64,000 bases of DNA from positions 62,001 through 126,000 of the forward strand of contig NZ_CP071129.1 of the NCBI RefSeq assembly GCF_017220215.1. Direction: 5' to 3'. Source of the DNA: Caballeronia sp. M1242 (GTDB lineage Bacteria; Pseudomonadota; Gammaproteobacteria; Burkholderiales; Burkholderiaceae). The notes under the pieces are model-generated. The model did not search any database. It was not told where the DNA came from and saw only the letters and a program-made list of their open reading frames with translations. Shown here piece after piece: positions 42,120-58,764 of the stretch. The number at the start of each line of letters is the position of its first letter. Position 1 is the stretch's first letter. The position numbers and the translations under genes were made by a program.

Positions 42120-42342
42120 GGGTTCTCCGGTCGGCGGGAGCGCGCTGTTGCGCGTGCTCCGTGAATCACACAGCGTTTGTTCTTGTTGCTCGATGAATCC
42201 GGTCGCGCGATGCCGAGCAAGCACCGCGCCCGCGCGCGTAGATTAGCGAACGCGCGGGCGCGCGACAACGAACCGTTGCGCATACCGATATGTCCCGCTG
42301 TCTGCGTCGGCTTGCCGAACGCGACGCGTCACGCTACACTGC
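42120..42342. other. intergenic region upstream of the riboswitch
   Basis: Spacer between two divergent units. A TACACT near 42334-42339 is a plausible -10 for the riboswitch transcript; no clear -35. Confidence 0.4.
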
Positions 42343-42450
42343 CCCGGTCTTTGGGGAGTAGCCTTCCTTCCGCTTGCGAAGGAGAACGCGTCAACATCCT
42401 CGGCTCTGCTGCCGTGGCGCGTTCGACCGGTCCGGTTTGGCGAGACCACT
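42343..42450 (+). ncRNA. yybP-ykoY (Mn2+) riboswitch aptamer
   Basis: Matches the conserved core of the family: P1 strand GGTCT (42346-42350), followed directly by TTGGGGAGTAGCC, a variable hairpin (CCTTCCGCTTGCGAAGG, 42366-42382), then GTCAACATCCTCGG (42390-42403), a second variable arm and the invariant GGCGAGACC (42439-42447) whose AGACC closes P1 with GGTCT. Known members sense Mn2+ and control export or metal-handling transporters. Here the regulated gene is a CaCA-family exchanger starting at 42605. Confidence 0.85.
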
Positions 42451-42469
42451 GATGTGCCACGTCGTTCTT

Positions 42470-42513
42470 GGTCGGACGTCGCGTGGCGCATCATGGTTCG
42501 CTGACGTCCGACC
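42470..42513 (+). promoter_or_regulatory. candidate riboswitch expression-platform hairpin
   Basis: Perfect 11-bp stem GGTCGGACGTC / GACGTCCGACC with a 22-nt loop, 20 nt past the aptamer. No U-tract follows, so it may control Rho access or translation rather than intrinsic termination. Confidence 0.55.
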
Positions 42514-42604: not shown

Positions 42605-43615
42605 ATGACGATGCTTTTCCTCGAACTCGCGTTGATGCTCGCGATCATTCTGATTGCCTCCGAGCTCTTCACCAACGCGCTCGAACACCTCGGCGAACGG
42701 CTCGGCATTTCGGAAGGCGTGACCGGATCGCTTTTCGCCGCAGTGGGCACGGCCTTGCCGGAAACGACGGTGCCGATCATCGCGCTCTTAGGCGGCACGG
42801 CAAGCCGCGCGGTCAACGAGGAGATCGGCGTCGGCGCGATCCTCGGCGCGCCGCTCATGCTCGCGACGCTTTCGACGTTCCTGATGACGCTCGCCATCGT
42901 GAAATCGCGCGGTTTGCGCGGCGTGATCGAGCCGGAGCGCAGCGGCTTTACGCGCGATCTCAACTTCTTCCTGATCGCATTCCTCATCGCGGCTGGCGCG
43001 ATGTTCGTGCCGCATCACGCATGGCAGGTGCGCGCGCTGTTCGCGGCGGGGCTCGTCGGCCTGTACGTGATCTATGTAATCTCGACCTTCAGGGCATCGG
43101 CCAATCTCGTCGAAAGCGGACACGGCACCGAAGCGCCCGAAACGCTCTTCATCTCGCGCGTCGGACTCAAGACGAATCTCGGCTCGATCATGCTGCAATT
43201 TCTGATCGGCATCGTGTTGCTGGTGGGCGGCGCGAAGGGCTTCATTCACGGCGTCGAGGGCGTATCGCAGGCGCTCGGCGTCTCGGCGCTGCTGCTCTCG
43301 CTCATCATCATTCCGATCGCGACGGAGCTGCCCGAAAAGGTCAACAGCATTCTGTGGGCGCGGCGCGGCAAGGACACGCTCGCGTTTGGCAACATCACCG
43401 GCGCGATGGTGTTTCAGGGCACGTTGCTGCCGTCCATCGGCATCATGCTGACGCCGTGGGAGCCGCGCGTCGAAGTGCTGACCGGCGTGCTCATCACGCT
43501 CGCGGCGGCGGCGTGGCTGCGTTTCCATGCGAGAGGGAAGGGCGTCGCGTTGTGGGCGTTGCTCGGCAACGGCGTGCTGTACGCGGCGTATCTGACGTTG
43601 ACGCTCGGGCGCTAG
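42605..43615 (+). CDS. Na+/Ca2+-exchanger-family (CaCA, YrbG-like) membrane transporter under riboswitch control
   Basis: 336-aa inner-membrane protein, about ten helices. The two inverted alpha-repeats are visible: first ASELFTNALEHLGERLGISEGVTGSLFAAVGTALPETTVPIIAL (GTALPET matches the CaCA G-T-S-L-P-E motif), second GAKGFIHGVEGVSQALGVSALLLSLIIIPIATELPEKVNSILWARRG (IATELPE). ATG 42605 has GAGG eight bases upstream. A yybP-ykoY riboswitch precedes it, so manganese (or Mn2+/Ca2+) export is more likely than calcium alone. Converges with the fliT side. Confidence 0.85.
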   Translation: MTMLFLELALMLAIILIASELFTNALEHLGERLGISEGVTGSLFAAVGTALPETTVPIIALLGGTASRAVNEEIGVGAILGAPLMLATLSTFLMTLAIVKSRGLRGVIEPERSGFTRDLNFFLIAFLIAAGAMFVPHHAWQVRALFAAGLVGLYVIYVISTFRASANLVESGHGTEAPETLFISRVGLKTNLGSIMLQFLIGIVLLVGGAKGFIHGVEGVSQALGVSALLLSLIIIPIATELPEKVNSILWARRGKDTLAFGNITGAMVFQGTLLPSIGIMLTPWEPRVEVLTGVLITLAAAAWLRFHARGKGVALWALLGNGVLYAAYLTLTLGR

Positions 43616-43631: not shown

Positions 43632-43657
43632 TAAAAATGCCCGCGCGAGGCGGGCAT
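43632..43657 (-). terminator. terminator ending fliT and the candidate sRNA
   Basis: ATGCCCGC/GCGGGCAT stem (43637-43657, 5-nt loop) followed on the minus strand by TTTTTATTTG. Confidence 0.88.
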
Positions 43658-43705
43658 CGAGAGCAAAGCTGCGTCATCACATCGACGCTTTCTTGTTGTT
43701 GTTAG
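43635..43705 (-). ncRNA. candidate sigma-28-dependent small RNA
   Basis: Predicted transcript of about 65-75 nt between a strong FliA promoter (43711-43737) and an intrinsic terminator. The 5' end is unstructured and CA-rich (about 43703-43689), then a small hairpin GCGTC/GACGC (43671-43688), then the terminator hairpin and U-tail. No ORF of any size is inside. This is the layout of a Hfq-type sRNA. Expression is predicted, not shown. Confidence 0.6.
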
Positions 43706-43710
43706 TCTGT

Positions 43711-43737
43711 ATAACGGCGCGGGGCAGGGAAACTTTA
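43711..43737 (-). promoter_or_regulatory. sigma-28 (FliA) promoter overlapping the fliT stop
   Basis: Minus strand TAAAGTTT (43737-43730), 11-nt spacer, GCCGTTAT (43718-43711). The -35 is 8/8 and the -10 6/8 to consensus with exact spacing. The first three bases of the -35 are the fliT stop codon TAA. The only thing downstream before the terminator is the candidate sRNA. Confidence 0.8.
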
Positions 43738-44046
43738 GAGCCGCGCGGCCTGTTGATAACGGCTGGCCGCGTCGACGCGCGCGGTCGCCTCGCGATACGT
43801 CTTGCCGAGCGACATGCGCGCGGCTTGCGCCGTCTGCATCAGCGCGGCATCCAGCGTCTGAATCTCGCTCGCGGTCTGCAACGTCACCGGATCGAGGTCG
43901 TTCTCCAATTGCATGATGATCGGCGAACGCAGCTCGGAGAGGCGCGCCGCTTCGATCCAGTCGCCGGCGGCTGCGGCCGCGGCCATGGCGCGCGTGAGCG
44001 ACGCCGCGTGGGTCAGCATGTCTCGTTGGCTCACATCTTTCTCCAT
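43735..44046 (-). CDS. fliT: flagellar chaperone FliT
   Basis: 103-aa helical export chaperone for the filament cap protein FliD. Predicted all-alpha, with LTRAMAAAAAAGDWIEAARLSELRSPIIMQLE matching the FliT-like helix pair, and a C-terminal helix. It follows fliD by 21 nt, the usual FliD-FliT arrangement. In enterics FliT also binds FlhC to inhibit FlhDC, which is notable because flhC is missing from its expected site. Sequence identity of such chaperones is low; the call relies on position as well. Confidence 0.82.
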   Translation of the reverse strand: MEKDVSQRDMLTHAASLTRAMAAAAAAGDWIEAARLSELRSPIIMQLENDLDPVTLQTASEIQTLDAALMQTAQAARMSLGKTYREATARVDAASRYQQAARL

Positions 44047-44067
44047 GCGAATGGGTTGGCGCCTGCG

Positions 44068-45510
44068 TTACTTGTTGGTCGCGAGCGCGCCGGCGCTGTT
44101 CGTGCCGCCGAAAAGCTGCGTCAGGTACGTCGTGTTGCTCTGCATCGTCGCCATGAGCGTATTGAGCGCCGTGAACTGAGCGTTGTATTGCGACGTCAGG
44201 CTGTCGGCGTAGGTCTGCAGCTTCGTCGTCTGATCGGTCAGGCTCTTCAGGTCTGCATTGATGGCGGTCGTGCGCGTATCGATAATGCCGCCCGTTTGCA
44301 GGAACGACGTGATCTTCGAATTCAGCTGCGTGCCGATGCCGTTCGTCTGGTTGAAGAGCTGGCTCACGCGCGTCGGGCTGTTCGAGAGCGCGGTGGAAAG
44401 CGTCGAATCGTCGATGGACAGCGTGCCGTCGTCCTGAAGGTCGATGCCGATCGACGCGAGGTTCGTCGTCGTCGAAGTGGAACCGGAACCCGAACTCACG
44501 CCGCTCGTGATGATGCTGGACAGCGAACTCTGAATGCTCTGAAGCATGGAGTCGCCGAGCAGCACGCCGCCTTGCGAGCCGGCGCTTTTCGTGGAGTCGA
44601 ACGACGACAGCGCGGCGGCCTGGCTCACGAACGAGTTGTACGCGTCGACGAACGCCTTGATCGTGCTCTTTTCCGTGGTCGTGTCGGAGGAGACGGTCAA
44701 CGTCTGCGTCGAGCCTGCCGCAGCCGATGCCAGGTTCAGCGTCACGCCGCCGATCGCGGTCGTGAGCGTGTTGGTCGAGCTCGTGACGGCCGTGCCGTCG
44801 ACCGTGAGCGACGCGTCTTGCGCCGCCGACGTCTGCGTGTAGTTGCTGCTGCCCGTGCTGTACGAAAGCGACGAATCGACGCCCGAGCCGGCGGTGACCG
44901 AAATGGTGTTCGCTGCGCCCGTCGTCTTCGACGCGAGCACGAGATGCTGACCGTCGGTGCCGGTGACGATGGTCGCGCTGATGCCGGGGTTGTCGCTCGC
45001 CGAATTGATCGACGACGCGATGCTCGCCAGCGTGTTCGTGCCGTCGAGCGTCACATTCATCGAGCTCGATCCGAGCGAAAGCGAGAGCGTGCCGGTGCCG
45101 AAGGTGTCGGTGGCGGCGTGCGCCGTCGACGAAATCTTCTGCGCGCTGGCGATGTTGTTGACCGTGATCGCATACGAACCGGCCACCGCGCTCGTGCCGG
45201 CCGTCGCCGTGAGCCCGCTGCCGCTCGCCGTCGCCGTGTACGCGGCGAGTCCGGTGCCGTCGGAAAGACTCTTCAGCGCCGTTTGCACCGATGACAGCGC
45301 GGACTTGATCTGCGAGACGGCGGACAGAAGCGTGTTGTCGCTCGCCGTCTTGTTCGCGATCTGCGTGGCCTGAGCGGTGGTCTTCGCGGTGACGAGCGAG
45401 GAAACCAGCGTGGATACATCGAGCGTGGAGTTCGTCGCGCCGCTGATGATGGACTGCGCGGCAGCGGCCAGTGTGGCGCTGACGTCGGTACTCGAGGTGG
45501 TGGTGGTCAT
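44068..45510 (-). CDS. fliD: flagellar filament cap protein FliD (HAP2)
   Basis: 480-aa secreted cap protein that folds flagellin subunits at the filament tip. N-terminal FliD_N region (LDVSTLVSSLVTAKTTAQATQIANKTASDNTLLSAVSQIKSALSSVQTALKSL) and C-terminal coiled coil (INADLKSLTDQTTKLQTYADSLTSQYNAQFTALNTLMATMQSNTTYLTQLF) are clear; the Ser/Thr-rich middle (about 100-400) is the D2-D3 part. Ribosome site GGAGC precedes ATG 45510. Separated from fliC by a 154-nt spacer with three hairpins. Confidence 0.95.
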   Translation of the reverse strand: MTTTTSSTDVSATLAAAAQSIISGATNSTLDVSTLVSSLVTAKTTAQATQIANKTASDNTLLSAVSQIKSALSSVQTALKSLSDGTGLAAYTATASGSGLTATAGTSAVAGSYAITVNNIASAQKISSTAHAATDTFGTGTLSLSLGSSSMNVTLDGTNTLASIASSINSASDNPGISATIVTGTDGQHLVLASKTTGAANTISVTAGSGVDSSLSYSTGSSNYTQTSAAQDASLTVDGTAVTSSTNTLTTAIGGVTLNLASAAAGSTQTLTVSSDTTTEKSTIKAFVDAYNSFVSQAAALSSFDSTKSAGSQGGVLLGDSMLQSIQSSLSSIITSGVSSGSGSTSTTTNLASIGIDLQDDGTLSIDDSTLSTALSNSPTRVSQLFNQTNGIGTQLNSKITSFLQTGGIIDTRTTAINADLKSLTDQTTKLQTYADSLTSQYNAQFTALNTLMATMQSNTTYLTQLFGGTNSAGALATNK

Positions 45511-45545
45511 CGGATGCTCCGGACGGACTGCCTTTTCTGTTTGCG

Positions 45546-45597
45546 AGCTTTCGTGAGCGCAGCGCCGATGATGAATGTCGCTGCGCTAACGAAAGCT
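45546..45597. repeat. long 19-nt-arm hairpin in the fliC-fliD spacer
   Basis: Arms AGCTTTCG-TG-AGCGCAGCG (45546-45564) and CGCTGCGCT-AA-CGAAAGCT (45579-45597) pair except for a 2x2 internal mismatch; 14-nt loop. No U-tract. Confidence 0.75.
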
Positions 45598-45615
45598 GGG
45601 AGGCGGGCCTCCCAG
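45596..45615 (-). terminator. hairpin 2 in the fliC-fliD spacer
   Basis: Perfect CTGGGAGG/CCTCCCAG stem with 4-nt loop, abutting the long hairpin. Lacks a U-tract, so attenuation or 3'-end stabilisation of fliC mRNA is likely. Confidence 0.55.
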
Positions 45616-45627
45616 TGAACTGCCGAA

Positions 45628-45650
45628 CCCCGCCCAATGTTGCGGCGGGG
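45628..45650 (-). terminator. hairpin 3, next to the fliC stop
   Basis: CCCCGCC/GGCGGGG stem with 9-nt loop, 14 nt after the fliC stop codon. Confidence 0.5.
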
Positions 45651-45664
45651 CAGGTCACATGCGC

Positions 45665-46489
45665 TTAGCCGAGGAGCTTCAGCACTTGCTGCGGCATCGA
45701 GTTCGCTTGCGCGAGAACCGAGATACCCGCTTGTTGCAGCACTTGAGCCTTCGACAGGTTCGCCGTTTCTTGCGCGAAGTCCGCGTCGGTGATGGCCGAC
45801 TGTGCTGCGTTCAGGTTGGTCGACTGCGACTGGAGGCTGGTCACGGCCGACGTGAAGCGGTTTTGTTCAGCGCCGAGCGTCGATTGCAGCGTGTTGACGG
45901 TGTCGAGCGCCGTGTCGACCAGGCTGATCACGGACTGCGCGCCGCTTGCCGTGGAGATGTCGACCGATGCCGAGCCGAACAGGCCGGTCTGGCTCATCGC
46001 GGTGCTGCCGAAGTCGACGCTCAGCGTCTGGTTCGCCACTGCGCCGATCTGGAAGGCCACCGTCGAGACCGAGCCGGACAGCATGGCTTGGCCGTTGAAC
46101 GTCGTCTGGCTCGAAACGCGGTCGAGTTCGCCGAGACGCTGGGTCACTTCCGTCTGGAGGTAGCCGCGCTGCGTGTCGGAGAGCGAACCGTCGGCTGCCT
46201 GAACGGCCAGCTGGCGAATACGCTGAAGGTTGTCCGTCGTGGAGCTGAGGCCGCCCGACGCCGTTTGAATCATCGAGATCGCGTTGTTCGCGTTCGACAC
46301 GCCCTGGTTCAGCGCGTTGACGTACGACGTCATGTTCGTCGAAATCGCCAGGCCTGCTGCATCGTCAGCTGCGCTGTTGATGCGCTTGCCCGACGAGAGG
46401 CGGTTAATAGCCGACGACAGCGCGCTTTGCGAACCTTGCAGGTTCTTTTGCGTCGTTTGCGACAGGGTGTTGGTGTTGATGTTCAACAT
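45665..46489 (-). CDS. fliC: flagellin
   Basis: 274-aa filament subunit. The conserved N-terminal D0/D1 (MLNINTNTLSQTTQKNLQGSQSALSSAINRLSSGKRINSAADDAAGLAIS, then GVSNANNAISMIQTASGGLS) and C-terminal D1/D0 (NRFTSAVTSLQSQSTNLNAAQSAITDADFAQETANLSKAQVLQQAGISVLAQAN) are nearly all there is: the variable D2/D3 insert is reduced to about 60-70 residues, among the shorter flagellins. GAGGTAA precedes the ATG. Driven by an excellent sigma-28 promoter 94-120 nt upstream. Confidence 0.98.
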   Translation of the reverse strand: MLNINTNTLSQTTQKNLQGSQSALSSAINRLSSGKRINSAADDAAGLAISTNMTSYVNALNQGVSNANNAISMIQTASGGLSSTTDNLQRIRQLAVQAADGSLSDTQRGYLQTEVTQRLGELDRVSSQTTFNGQAMLSGSVSTVAFQIGAVANQTLSVDFGSTAMSQTGLFGSASVDISTASGAQSVISLVDTALDTVNTLQSTLGAEQNRFTSAVTSLQSQSTNLNAAQSAITDADFAQETANLSKAQVLQQAGISVLAQANSMPQQVLKLLG

Positions 46490-46646: not shown

Positions 46647-46721
46647 CTGCCGGCGCCTTGGCCGGCAGGGCTTAAAAGCAATTACGGCCGGGCCGGCTAC
46701 ACCTTTACAGGCAGCCGGCCC
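46647..46721 (-). terminator. two hairpins after the HAD gene
   Basis: GGGCCGGCT/AGCCGGCCC (46690-46721) and CTGCCGGC/GCCGGCAG (46647-46668), both downstream of the HAD gene stop and separating it from the fliC promoter. A short TTTTAA lies between them on the minus strand. Confidence 0.6.
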
Positions 46722-46730
46722 GATATCTCT

Positions 46731-49151
46731 TCATGAGGCGAGGGCGGTGTCAGCCTTCTGAACCCAGGAAAGCGGGCGGAACGTCAGGCGCATCAATTGC
46801 CGCGCGTTTCCGGCCATGGCAGGCACATAGATCAGTCCGTTCAGCGACATCTCGAACATGCCGGATTCGCGCTCAGTCATGCCGTCGTAAATGATCTCGC
46901 TCCCAGGCGAGAGCGCGCGCTGGCGATCGAACTCAATACGCGTATCCAGCGTTTCCGCGGGAAAGGTTGTCGCCGACGCAATCTGCACCCAGTTCATCTC
47001 CTTGCCGAACATGAGCGCGACGTCGAAGTCGGAAATGGGCACGACGAGCGAATAGAAGCCGTCGTAAGTCGCGCGCGCGGTCAGCGTCTCGGTCGCGGTT
47101 TCATTGCCGCGCACGAAAAGCGCGGGAATTCGCGTCTCGCGGTACGTCGTATCGTCGACGGTGAAATCCAGACGGTGACGGCGCACGGCCATTAGAAAGA
47201 TCGCCTGATCGATGCCTGCGTGGCGCATCTCGTACGGATAACCCGGACGAAAACCCTTGCCGATGCTGCGCATATAGAAGGGTCCGCGCTGACGAAGCCC
47301 TTCGATGCCCGCGTCGTTATCCGCGACGTTGAATGCGTGAATGGACGCCCCGTTAATCTCGAACACCGTCTCATTGCCGCCGGCCACTTCGTCGCGGTCC
47401 GGGAGATACAGTAGGCGTGCGAGGCAGATGGCCGCATCGACGCGTAGTCGTTCAGCCGTCAGGCGGGGAAAGCTGGTGGCCGGCATCACGGCCATATCGC
47501 GGACAAAGCGGACGCAAGCATCCTGGATTTCTCCGCTTTGCGCGATTTGCTTCTCGCTTTTCGCAGATTGGTTGAGAAGCGGCGTGCCGTCGTCCTTGAA
47601 GTCATACACGCTGCCGGTTTTGAGCGAGCACATCTGCTCGAAATGGCCAATATGCGCGATCAACATCTCCATCACGTTTTCATCGGCCCAGCGGCTGTCG
47701 ACGACGCCCGCGCGATCCGCGCGCCAGCCGGGTGTATCCAGCGAAACGAGATAGCGCCCGACGATCTCCACGTCGTAATACTTCTTGAACAGTTTGCCGA
47801 GCGAGCGCTGAATGGAGCCGTAGTAACCCAGGTCCACGATCACGAGCGTGTCGCCGCGCTCGAGTCCGACGGTGCGCTGCAGATGGCGAAAGAGCCGCTG
47901 ACGAAGCGCCGCGCTGCGTTCGATGATGAGCTTCACCGTGCGCGGTTCCAGCACGAGACGCCGGAACGTCTGCAGCGGATTGGCGGATGCGTTTGCCTCG
48001 GCGAGCAGTTTGCCGGTTTCTTTGGGCGGCAGTTGCAGCTGGTCTGCGCCGAACTTCATCATCTGCGGGTTGATGACCTCTGTACTCAGATAACGCTCGA
48101 TGGCCTCGCGGCTGTCGAAGGTCGAACCGGCGGCGACGAACCGCCCGACGTACGCTTCATTGCCGATCGGGCCGCCGTGCAGCGCTTCGCATGCCCGATG
48201 AATCAGATGCCCGTCGCGCAGCAGAAACGCGAGCTTGTGCGGTCGGCCACGCGCTTTGAGATCCTCATGCGTGTCCAGCACGAAGCGCGCGAACGCGTGC
48301 ATGATCGGGCCGACCGACCAGTAGCCGATGCGCTCGTTCGTGCTCATGTTGCGGCCCTGTTGCAGGGAGCGCATCGCGTGATGCAAGCTCGGCGCGGGCT
48401 TCGTCGCGCGGATCGACGGAAACAGCACGCGCGCCGCCATCAGCCGCTGCCGGTCCGCTTTATGCATTTCTTCGTCGCGCTGCTGGAAATGCAGTACGCC
48501 GATGCCCATCTGCTGTGGAACGGCCCAGTCCGCGTACGGGTTGTCGCCGGTATGGAGAATCTCCGACGGCGCGACGCCCAGCCGTTCCGTCACGACATTC
48601 CAGAGTCCCGTGGACTTCGAGACGCCGAATTCGGACGAACAAAACACGACGTCGATGAGCGATTCGAGCTCCGGCGCGGTCGTGAAGAGAATGCGGCGCA
48701 ATTGCGCCTCGGAGTAATAGGTATCGCTGACGATTGCCGTGCGTAGGCCGCGAATTTTCGCCTCGCGCAGCAGCGCGAGCACCGGCTCGAAGATGAAGCC
48801 GATCTCGATCTCTTTATCGACCTCGCGCTCGGCGAGCGCGCTCACCGTTGCTTCGTCGGCGTGAGGCGCGGCTTCGGCATAAATCTGTTCGAGCGTCGCC
48901 TCGCTCTTGCGGGTTGCGAAGTAATTCTGTTTACGCGCCTCGGATTCGGCCATCGTGCGCACGCGGGCGCTTACGCCGTGCTCGACGAATAGCGGATCTT
49001 CGGCCAGCGCGTAGTAAACGTCGACCGGTTCCTGTACGGCGCGCCAGAACAGCGTGTCGAAACAGTCGAAAGTCGCGACCGTATGCGACGGCGCGCGCGC
49101 CGACCACGTTTCGGCCAACTGATCCGGAAGGACGTTCTTGTCTGCTTGCAT
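46731..49151 (-). CDS. large HAD-superfamily hydrolase (COG5610 type)
   Basis: 806 aa. N-terminal HAD domain: motif I FDCFDTL (D29), motif II VSDTYYS, and motif III/IV HTGDNPYADW. The residue two after the nucleophile is Phe, not Asp, as in dehalogenase-like members, so ordinary phosphatase activity is doubtful. Residues about 320-560 form a second conserved unit (LRDGHLIHRACEAL, VIVDLGYYGSIQRSLGKLF), and 560-806 a beta-rich tail. Such proteins occur in polysaccharide and flagellin-modification loci; its position just upstream of fliC suggests flagellin or surface glycan modification. Start ATG 49151 with GGAG. An upstream in-frame Met (49304) was rejected. Confidence 0.75.
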   Translation of the reverse strand: MQADKNVLPDQLAETWSARAPSHTVATFDCFDTLFWRAVQEPVDVYYALAEDPLFVEHGVSARVRTMAESEARKQNYFATRKSEATLEQIYAEAAPHADEATVSALAEREVDKEIEIGFIFEPVLALLREAKIRGLRTAIVSDTYYSEAQLRRILFTTAPELESLIDVVFCSSEFGVSKSTGLWNVVTERLGVAPSEILHTGDNPYADWAVPQQMGIGVLHFQQRDEEMHKADRQRLMAARVLFPSIRATKPAPSLHHAMRSLQQGRNMSTNERIGYWSVGPIMHAFARFVLDTHEDLKARGRPHKLAFLLRDGHLIHRACEALHGGPIGNEAYVGRFVAAGSTFDSREAIERYLSTEVINPQMMKFGADQLQLPPKETGKLLAEANASANPLQTFRRLVLEPRTVKLIIERSAALRQRLFRHLQRTVGLERGDTLVIVDLGYYGSIQRSLGKLFKKYYDVEIVGRYLVSLDTPGWRADRAGVVDSRWADENVMEMLIAHIGHFEQMCSLKTGSVYDFKDDGTPLLNQSAKSEKQIAQSGEIQDACVRFVRDMAVMPATSFPRLTAERLRVDAAICLARLLYLPDRDEVAGGNETVFEINGASIHAFNVADNDAGIEGLRQRGPFYMRSIGKGFRPGYPYEMRHAGIDQAIFLMAVRRHRLDFTVDDTTYRETRIPALFVRGNETATETLTARATYDGFYSLVVPISDFDVALMFGKEMNWVQIASATTFPAETLDTRIEFDRQRALSPGSEIIYDGMTERESGMFEMSLNGLIYVPAMAGNARQLMRLTFRPLSWVQKADTALAS

Positions 49152-49407
49152 GTGATGGACTCCGCAGCCCGCGCCGGCGGGTCTGCATTGATGGTTTTCG
49201 TGCGTCGGGCGTCTGCAGCGGGTCGCTCTCGGCCGCCCCGGCATCAGCCTCTGTGATGTGTCGACGATCTTAGGGGCTTGCGCCAGAACGAAAGCACGGA
49301 ACAAGCGCAGCTTTGGGCTTCATTTCGGCGCATGAGCGACGCGCGCGGCAGCGTCGCGCAATGTTGCGTATCCTTCCCGAACGTCCTCTACTCACGCGGA
49401 GTACTCC

Positions 49408-58737: not shown

Positions 58738-58764
58738 CAAAGTTTTCCACCCGCGTGCCGTAAA
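58738..58764 (+). promoter_or_regulatory. sigma-28 promoter of motA-motB-cheYAW
   Basis: CAAAGTTT (7/8), 11-nt spacer, GCCGTAAA (about 6/8). Predicted start about 58771, about 50 nt before motA. Confidence 0.8.

Follow-up and report, generated by a model that had tools for sequence, protein, structure and literature searches.

A predicted FliA-dependent small RNA gene at the fliT stop codon in Caballeronia and its probable origin in a 3'UTR

The stretch of DNA analysed here (hereafter, the window) comprises 64,000 nucleotides of the genome of Caballeronia sp. M1242 and includes, on its minus strand, a fliT gene followed by a predicted RNA of about 70 nt, with a gene for a Na/Ca-exchanger-family transporter lying in convergent orientation outside this unit (Table 1). 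The fliT product matches the Pfam family FliT at 25.4 bits (E 2.5e-5), a score under the 29.5 cut-off. An initial reading of this DNA from its letters alone (referred to below as the sequence-only reading) had placed the RNA in a 40-bp gap; the distance from the fliT stop to the stop of the convergent transporter gene is, however, about 120 bp. A manganese (yybP-ykoY) riboswitch (positions 42341-42509, plus strand, 71.8 bits) was found directly before the transporter gene, as well as in one other locus (L023), and the gene may encode an exporter that responds to manganese and not a calcium exporter.

Table 1. Features of the fliT-transporter region, in window coordinates.
Feature	Position	Strand	Remarks
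fliT, upstream gene	43735..44046	-	stop codon TAA (43737-43735) overlaps the promoter
-35 element TAAAGTTT of the σ28 promoter	43730..43737	-	first three bases, TAA, are the fliT stop codon
11-nt spacer CCCTGCCCCGC	43719..43729	-	constant length; 46% mean pairwise identity
-10 element GCCGTTAT	43711..43718	-	90% mean pairwise identity (22 loci)
Predicted transcription start (inferred)	43700..43705	-	6-11 nt past the -10 element; RNA conservation begins there
A-rich 5' segment AACAACAACAAGAAA, candidate Hfq distal-face site	43689..43703	-	five consecutive A-R-N triplets
Hairpin 1, GCGUC / GACGC, loop GAUGUGAU	43671..43688	-	folding; covariation
Unpaired 12-nt linker AGCUUUGCUCUC, candidate seed	43659..43670	-	strong conservation in Caballeronia loci
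Intrinsic terminator GAUGCCCGC-loop-GCGGGCAUU and U-run	43632..43658	-	terminator scan, folding, alignment
Na/Ca-exchanger-family transporter gene, convergent, outside the unit	42611..43615	+	PF01699, 104 bits

Read directly on the minus strand, positions 43737-43711 consist of TAAAGTTT, CCCTGCCCCGC and GCCGTTAT in succession, an arrangement (TAAAGTTT-N11-GCCGTTAT) that we take, from the E. coli consensus, to be of the σ28 (FliA) type; the description of this site in the sequence-only reading, as a σ28 promoter with a perfect -35 element and 11-nt spacing that overlaps the fliT stop codon, is thus borne out. When up to three mismatches to the pattern TAAAGTTT-N11-GCCGWTAW were allowed, the window contained five sites as compared to 0.21 expected, and of the four other sites, one lies ahead of fliC (46609-46583) and one ahead of motA (58738-58764). 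Across the whole 5.76-Mb genome, only two perfect sites were identified, including the one that adjoins fliT, along with 35 sites with at most two mismatches, versus 6 for a reversed control pattern. These two hexamers also occur, 12 nt apart, in the flgM leaders of Caballeronia (all 6 leaders read, from six genomes). As fliC, motA, and flgM are all preceded by this motif, it very likely represents the FliA consensus of Caballeronia. A promoter of the FliA type is hence located, at the correct spacing, directly upstream of the RNA, and we infer from it that the RNA is transcribed and that its transcription depends on FliA.

Other σ28-like sites were also noted. A weaker match with three mismatches (46681-46707, minus strand) is situated between fliC and a frame of 857 aa that contains a HAD-hydrolase domain (46731-49304, minus strand). 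Further sites (L006 and L004 of genome G000, and L222-L228) precede a gene that by eye appears Flp-pilin-like and a conserved gene whose product begins with M(G/R)QITLS; these sites suggest that FliA control could extend outside the flagellum.

From its 5' end, the predicted minus-strand RNA comprises an A-rich segment, which starts seven bases past the -10 element, a hairpin, a conserved linker, and an intrinsic terminator. This agrees with the short terminated transcript with two hairpins and a U-tail proposed in the sequence-only reading; its predicted length is about 70 nt. Folding of positions 43704-43632 gave a minimum free energy of -24.2 kcal/mol (z -2.4; 4 of 200 shuffles were as low), and the corresponding RNAs of six relatives fold at z -1.3 to -4.4. 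With 9 pairs, the terminator hairpin is the stronger of two minus-strand terminator-like sites between 38000 and 48000; as this region contains 8 terminator-like sites in total, versus 9.7 in shuffles (i.e., no excess), the terminator scan alone does not provide evidence. The earlier statement that no ORF fits inside the RNA held up, as no conserved frame of at least 8 codons from ATG, GTG, or TTG was found in the RNA among 30 loci. A small ORF was therefore rejected as an explanation; the start common to the loci sits in the terminator stem and the frame overruns the U-tail.

Conservation was assessed with a model of the RNA only, built from 30 Caballeronia loci without promoter columns. In 40 of 58 Caballeronia genomes this model gave a match at E ≤ 3.7e-11, and another four genomes matched at 1.9e-6 to 2.4e-4, with E-values that are rough due to a shortened calibration; 13 of the 58 genomes had no accepted match. 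A blastn search with a 121-base query that included the promoter matched 48 of the 58 genomes at E ≤ 0.01, some of them partially. Three Caballeronia matches (L105, L158, and L159) were dropped, with no fliT or fliD nearby. With an RNA model of three genera, G000 showed one match at E ≤ 0.001 and no extra copies at that threshold. By the terms of the sequence-only reading, the idea would fall if promoter and terminator were not conserved beyond this strain. It survived this check: in 39 of the 40 genomes with strong matches a σ28 site at 11-nt spacing was present upstream of the RNA, and among these 40 G011 alone has the RNA without the promoter. The first 30 loci were located with a pattern that required TAAAG and CCG at a spacing of 10-12, and those bases could therefore not differ between these loci; neither the remaining hexamer bases nor the exact 11-nt spacing was imposed. 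When six further loci, fetched by the RNA model, were scored without any base requirement, five reached 15-16 of 16 and one reached 10. The promoter was also present in 3 of 3 genomes with no blastn match at the locus (G014, G042, and G008); for the RNA-model loci of G054, G006, and G011, blastn had matched the same place, whole or partly.

In the 22 loci whose fliT is intact and in frame, pairwise identity averaged 97% in the -35 element, 46% in the spacer, 90% in the -10 element, and 79% in the RNA, where five of the eight -35 bases and the CCG of the -10 element were fixed by the locating pattern. For comparison, codon positions 1, 2, and 3 of fliT showed 71%, 78%, and 55% identity in the same set and the 40 nt downstream showed 48%; the -10 element reads GCCG[AT]TA[AT] in 28 of 30 loci. 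A functional promoter would be expected to leave just this trace, with near-invariant hexamers on either side of a spacer that keeps its length but drifts in sequence like neutral DNA.

Exceptions to this pattern were seen as well. In a divergent Caballeronia clade (G028, G031, G032, and G037), the RNA lies behind fliT with no σ28 site; promoter-only matches in this clade were rejected, as they belong to another gene. G005 has kept the promoter and lost the terminator hairpin. Six Caballeronia genomes had no fliA match over the cut-off; three of these, all small genomes (G003, G045, and G046; loci L027, L020, and L030), keep promoter and RNA, which may reflect recent loss of fliA, an incomplete draft, or use of the promoter independent of FliA, and the other three (G009, G026, and G050) had no RNA match.

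With regard to the relationship between the RNA and fliT, 25 of 30 Caballeronia loci have a FliT-like frame whose in-frame stop is the TAA of the -35 element; in L027 fliT is frameshifted, and in L016, L029, L030, and L037 there is no fliT beside the promoter. Displaced genes were traced by a FliD search and by inspection of the intervening DNA, in which the FliT-like frame was recognised by eye and position. In five genomes (G044, G006, G002, G054, and G008), fliD and the FliT-like frame are located upstream of the promoter-RNA unit on the same contig, separated from it by 5.0-7.1 kb of other genes, in the draft genome G010 fliC-fliD-fliT is on a different contig than the unit, and in G046 the FliD search gave no match; in each of these genomes promoter and RNA have stayed beside the transporter gene. 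As promoter and RNA are kept with fliT displaced, the unit is kept for itself and not as the tail of fliT. Displacement of fliT in six Caballeronia genomes also argues against a dependence of expression on the upstream gene in these genomes; such a dependence may exist in Burkholderia. By eye, the genes between fliT and the unit (L229-L233) encode TPR proteins, DegT-like sugar aminotransferases, and others, and are possibly involved in flagellin modification. The transporter gene is downstream of the RNA in 42 of 45 Caballeronia loci and was found in none of 57 loci of Burkholderia and its sister genus g20 within 0.25-0.75 kb downstream. In the close relative G048 (L012 and L186, set against window positions 43735-46489 for the flagellar genes), the transporter was 98% identical, the promoter-sRNA stretch 88% identical, and FliD only 53% identical, with a different fliC leader; as FliD has diverged and the transporter is near-identical, an exchange of the fliC-fliD-fliT cassette seems to have taken place.

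Outside Caballeronia, 70 model matches were read and 57 of these have fliT or fliD upstream; the other 13, all weaker and from other genera (L094, L097, L100, and L140-L149), lacked both genes in the vicinity and were discarded as chance matches. The 57 loci, in which the RNA lies behind fliD-fliT, comprise 29 from genus g11 (Burkholderia) and 28 from g20, which is probably Paraburkholderia; a Paraburkholderia record with the RNA pattern is about 68% identical to the nearest g20 locus. At E ≤ 0.001, matches were found in 163 of 398 genomes at the family level, chance matches included, and in 62 of 300 genomes at the order level, among them G000 and G037, the remainder being matches of 27-39 bits that were not read individually. 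The hairpin loop of the window, GAUGUGA, is also present in many Burkholderia sequences. None of the 57 loci has a σ28 site near the RNA; the best scores were 8-11 of 16, which is the level of shuffles (made from 29 of the outside-genus loci), versus 15-16 in Caballeronia. In these loci, and in the 25 Caballeronia loci in which a FliT-like frame ends at the -35 element, the RNA is positioned between the stop codon and the terminator of an mRNA, as is a 3'UTR-derived sRNA. The presence of the RNA behind fliD-fliT without a σ28 site in 57 loci suggests that a 3'UTR RNA probably captured a promoter in Caballeronia. The RNA is thus probably older than the promoter, and the simplest history would be that the main Caballeronia lineage gained the promoter and G011 subsequently lost it. 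A tree built from the 3' portion of the transporter gene was poorly resolved and required at least two changes of promoter state; it is too weak to prove a single gain.

Comparison across the three genera (38 sequences) also provided evidence on the fold and the strand of the RNA. For a structure that was written by hand from the same 38 sequences, 29 cells showed changes on both sides versus 7.9 in shuffles, 96.2% of cells pair, and sliding the partner positions breaks the structure; double changes occur in 4 of the 6 pairs of helix 1, whereas the distal stem of the terminator hardly varies. Counted by pairs, double changes (5 versus 3.4) were not above shuffles, nor were further pair types (11 versus 10), and RNAalifold with the 30 Caballeronia sequences alone found little covariation, with a double change in 1 of 12 predicted pairs. 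On the minus strand, helix 1 has 18 G-U cells versus 4 A-C cells; as the roles of G-U and A-C swap on the opposite strand, the minus strand is the RNA strand. Runs of A-R-N triplets in the 5' segment had a mean length of 4.05 versus 2.09 in shuffles. A-R-N segments bind the distal face of Hfq, and the RNA would probably be loaded on Hfq through its A-R-N 5' end and its U-tail. The RNA hence combines a rho-independent terminator and its U-tail with conserved unpaired A-R-N and candidate seed segments, as would be expected of an Hfq-dependent trans-acting sRNA.

These data bear on whether the hairpins could merely serve to terminate both the fliD-fliT operon and the transporter gene that converges on it, and be conserved for stopping two genes, with a fortuitous promoter. 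The location of the hairpins between convergent stops, the near invariance of the distal stem, and the fact that hairpin 1 with its T-rich flank also scored as a plus-strand terminator-like site in the scan are all consistent with this possibility. The RNA is, however, conserved in loci where no transporter gene was found within the downstream stretch covered (the 57 loci of other genera and three Caballeronia loci), promoter and RNA remain together in six Caballeronia genomes with fliT distant or on another contig, and the G-U pairs identify the minus strand as that of the RNA; a shared convergent terminator was rejected on these three grounds. Termination would also not need a conserved A-R-N 5' end, a conserved linker, or hexamers at a fixed spacing, and we consider this explanation very unlikely.

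The searches for targets gave less definite results, and no candidate passed its control. The flgM leader was not above background as a target (6 leaders; a start was obtained in 6 of 7 loci). With regard to fliC, the RNA could pair with the fliC leader and exert feedback on flagellin synthesis, as the linker GYGCUCGUU(C/U) shows a 10-bp match to GAACGAGUGC, in a conserved leader hairpin, in 15 of 29 g11 and g20 loci and as matched sRNA-leader pairs were slightly better than permuted pairs (p 0.027, 40 rows, kinship ignored). The match is, however, missing in the other 14 of the 29 loci whose leader was read, the helix was not exceptional versus other windows of the same loci in the 11 loci where it was best (fractions 0.008-0.45), there is no credible pairing of linker and fliC leader in Caballeronia, including the window (0.84), and p < 0.05 was obtained in only 3 of 20 loci when leaders were shuffled and in only 4 of 21 when linkers were shuffled, making this target decidedly improbable. 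As a separate observation, most leaders read in Burkholderia and g20 (L190-L219) have a conserved hairpin GGCGG...CCGCC about 60-90 nt before fliC. The absence of a convincing target, together with the strong A-R-N 5' segment, would also fit an RNA that is made by FliA as a sink or sponge for Hfq, without a specific mRNA target, as suggested for E. coli FlgO, which is described in PMC10578931 as an RNA of about 75 nt with strong Hfq binding and few targets. We regard such a role as unlikely, since the linker is conserved in Caballeronia, and conserved in another form in Burkholderia, as a pairing seed would be.

Overall, we consider it likely, judging from sequence comparisons, that the locus is a stand-alone gene of the flagellar regulon for a FliA-dependent and probably Hfq-bound trans-acting sRNA that is new to this lineage. 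Under this explanation of a stand-alone sRNA gene, RNA polymerase with FliA would start at the promoter that overlaps the fliT stop, transcribe about 70 nt, and stop at the terminator; owing to the FliA promoter, the RNA is proposed to be present only when the late flagellar genes are on. The linker between the hairpins would probably base-pair with one or more mRNAs, and this pairing would probably adjust the output of flagellar or growth genes after hook completion. The ancestor would have been a 3'UTR-derived RNA of the fliD-fliT mRNA, a form that appears to persist in Burkholderia and the sister genus, and one Caballeronia lineage would have gained a σ28 promoter whose -35 element includes the stop codon. 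A more far-reaching version, in which a 3'UTR sRNA became an autonomous gene through a stop-codon promoter and outlasted the move of its host gene while its seed and a flagellin-leader target were rewritten together by lineage, appears quite improbable to us.

As far as the leading titles of our literature searches show, no flagellar-sigma sRNA had been described before in the Burkholderia group, of which this RNA would be the first; its family is sampled densely enough to follow how a 3'UTR RNA turned into a gene that has a promoter to itself. Among the members of Caballeronia are symbionts of leaf nodules and of insects, which reach their hosts by swimming, and a motility sRNA would therefore be directly testable in this genus.

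Among databases and published sRNAs, no Rfam family scored above its gathering threshold at this RNA, whether in the window or in the six relatives examined, and no FliA-dependent sRNA of Burkholderia or Caballeronia appeared among the leading titles of our searches of the open literature. A term search of the main texts of four papers on the Burkholderia cepacia complex (PMC4603805, PMC10175445, PMC5688073, and PMC10987360) found no sRNA at fliT. The Burkholderia cepacia complex sRNAs NcS25, ncS35, and RIT11b and the Burkholderia sRNA families in Rfam come from the same bacterial group; none is tied to fliT or FliA in the literature searched. In E. coli, the σ28-dependent sRNAs UhpU, MotR, FliX, and FlgO have been described, with FliX and FlgO processed from the 3'UTRs of fliC and flgL, respectively (PMC10578931). 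The RNA described here resembles these four in being short and UTR-linked, with FliA control reported there and predicted here; it differs from FliX and FlgO in that its host gene is fliT and that it has its own promoter in Caballeronia, whereas the Burkholderia form looks 3'UTR-derived, as FliX and FlgO are. CJnc170 (FlmR) of Campylobacter jejuni, according to PMC11187230 an unprocessed FliA-dependent non-coding RNA of 47 nt whose overexpression shortens flagella, is likewise a short FliA-dependent RNA, but belongs to a distant lineage and differs in length and context. By resemblance to these systems, the Caballeronia RNA may be made late in flagellar assembly and exert feedback on mRNAs of flagellar or ribosomal genes.
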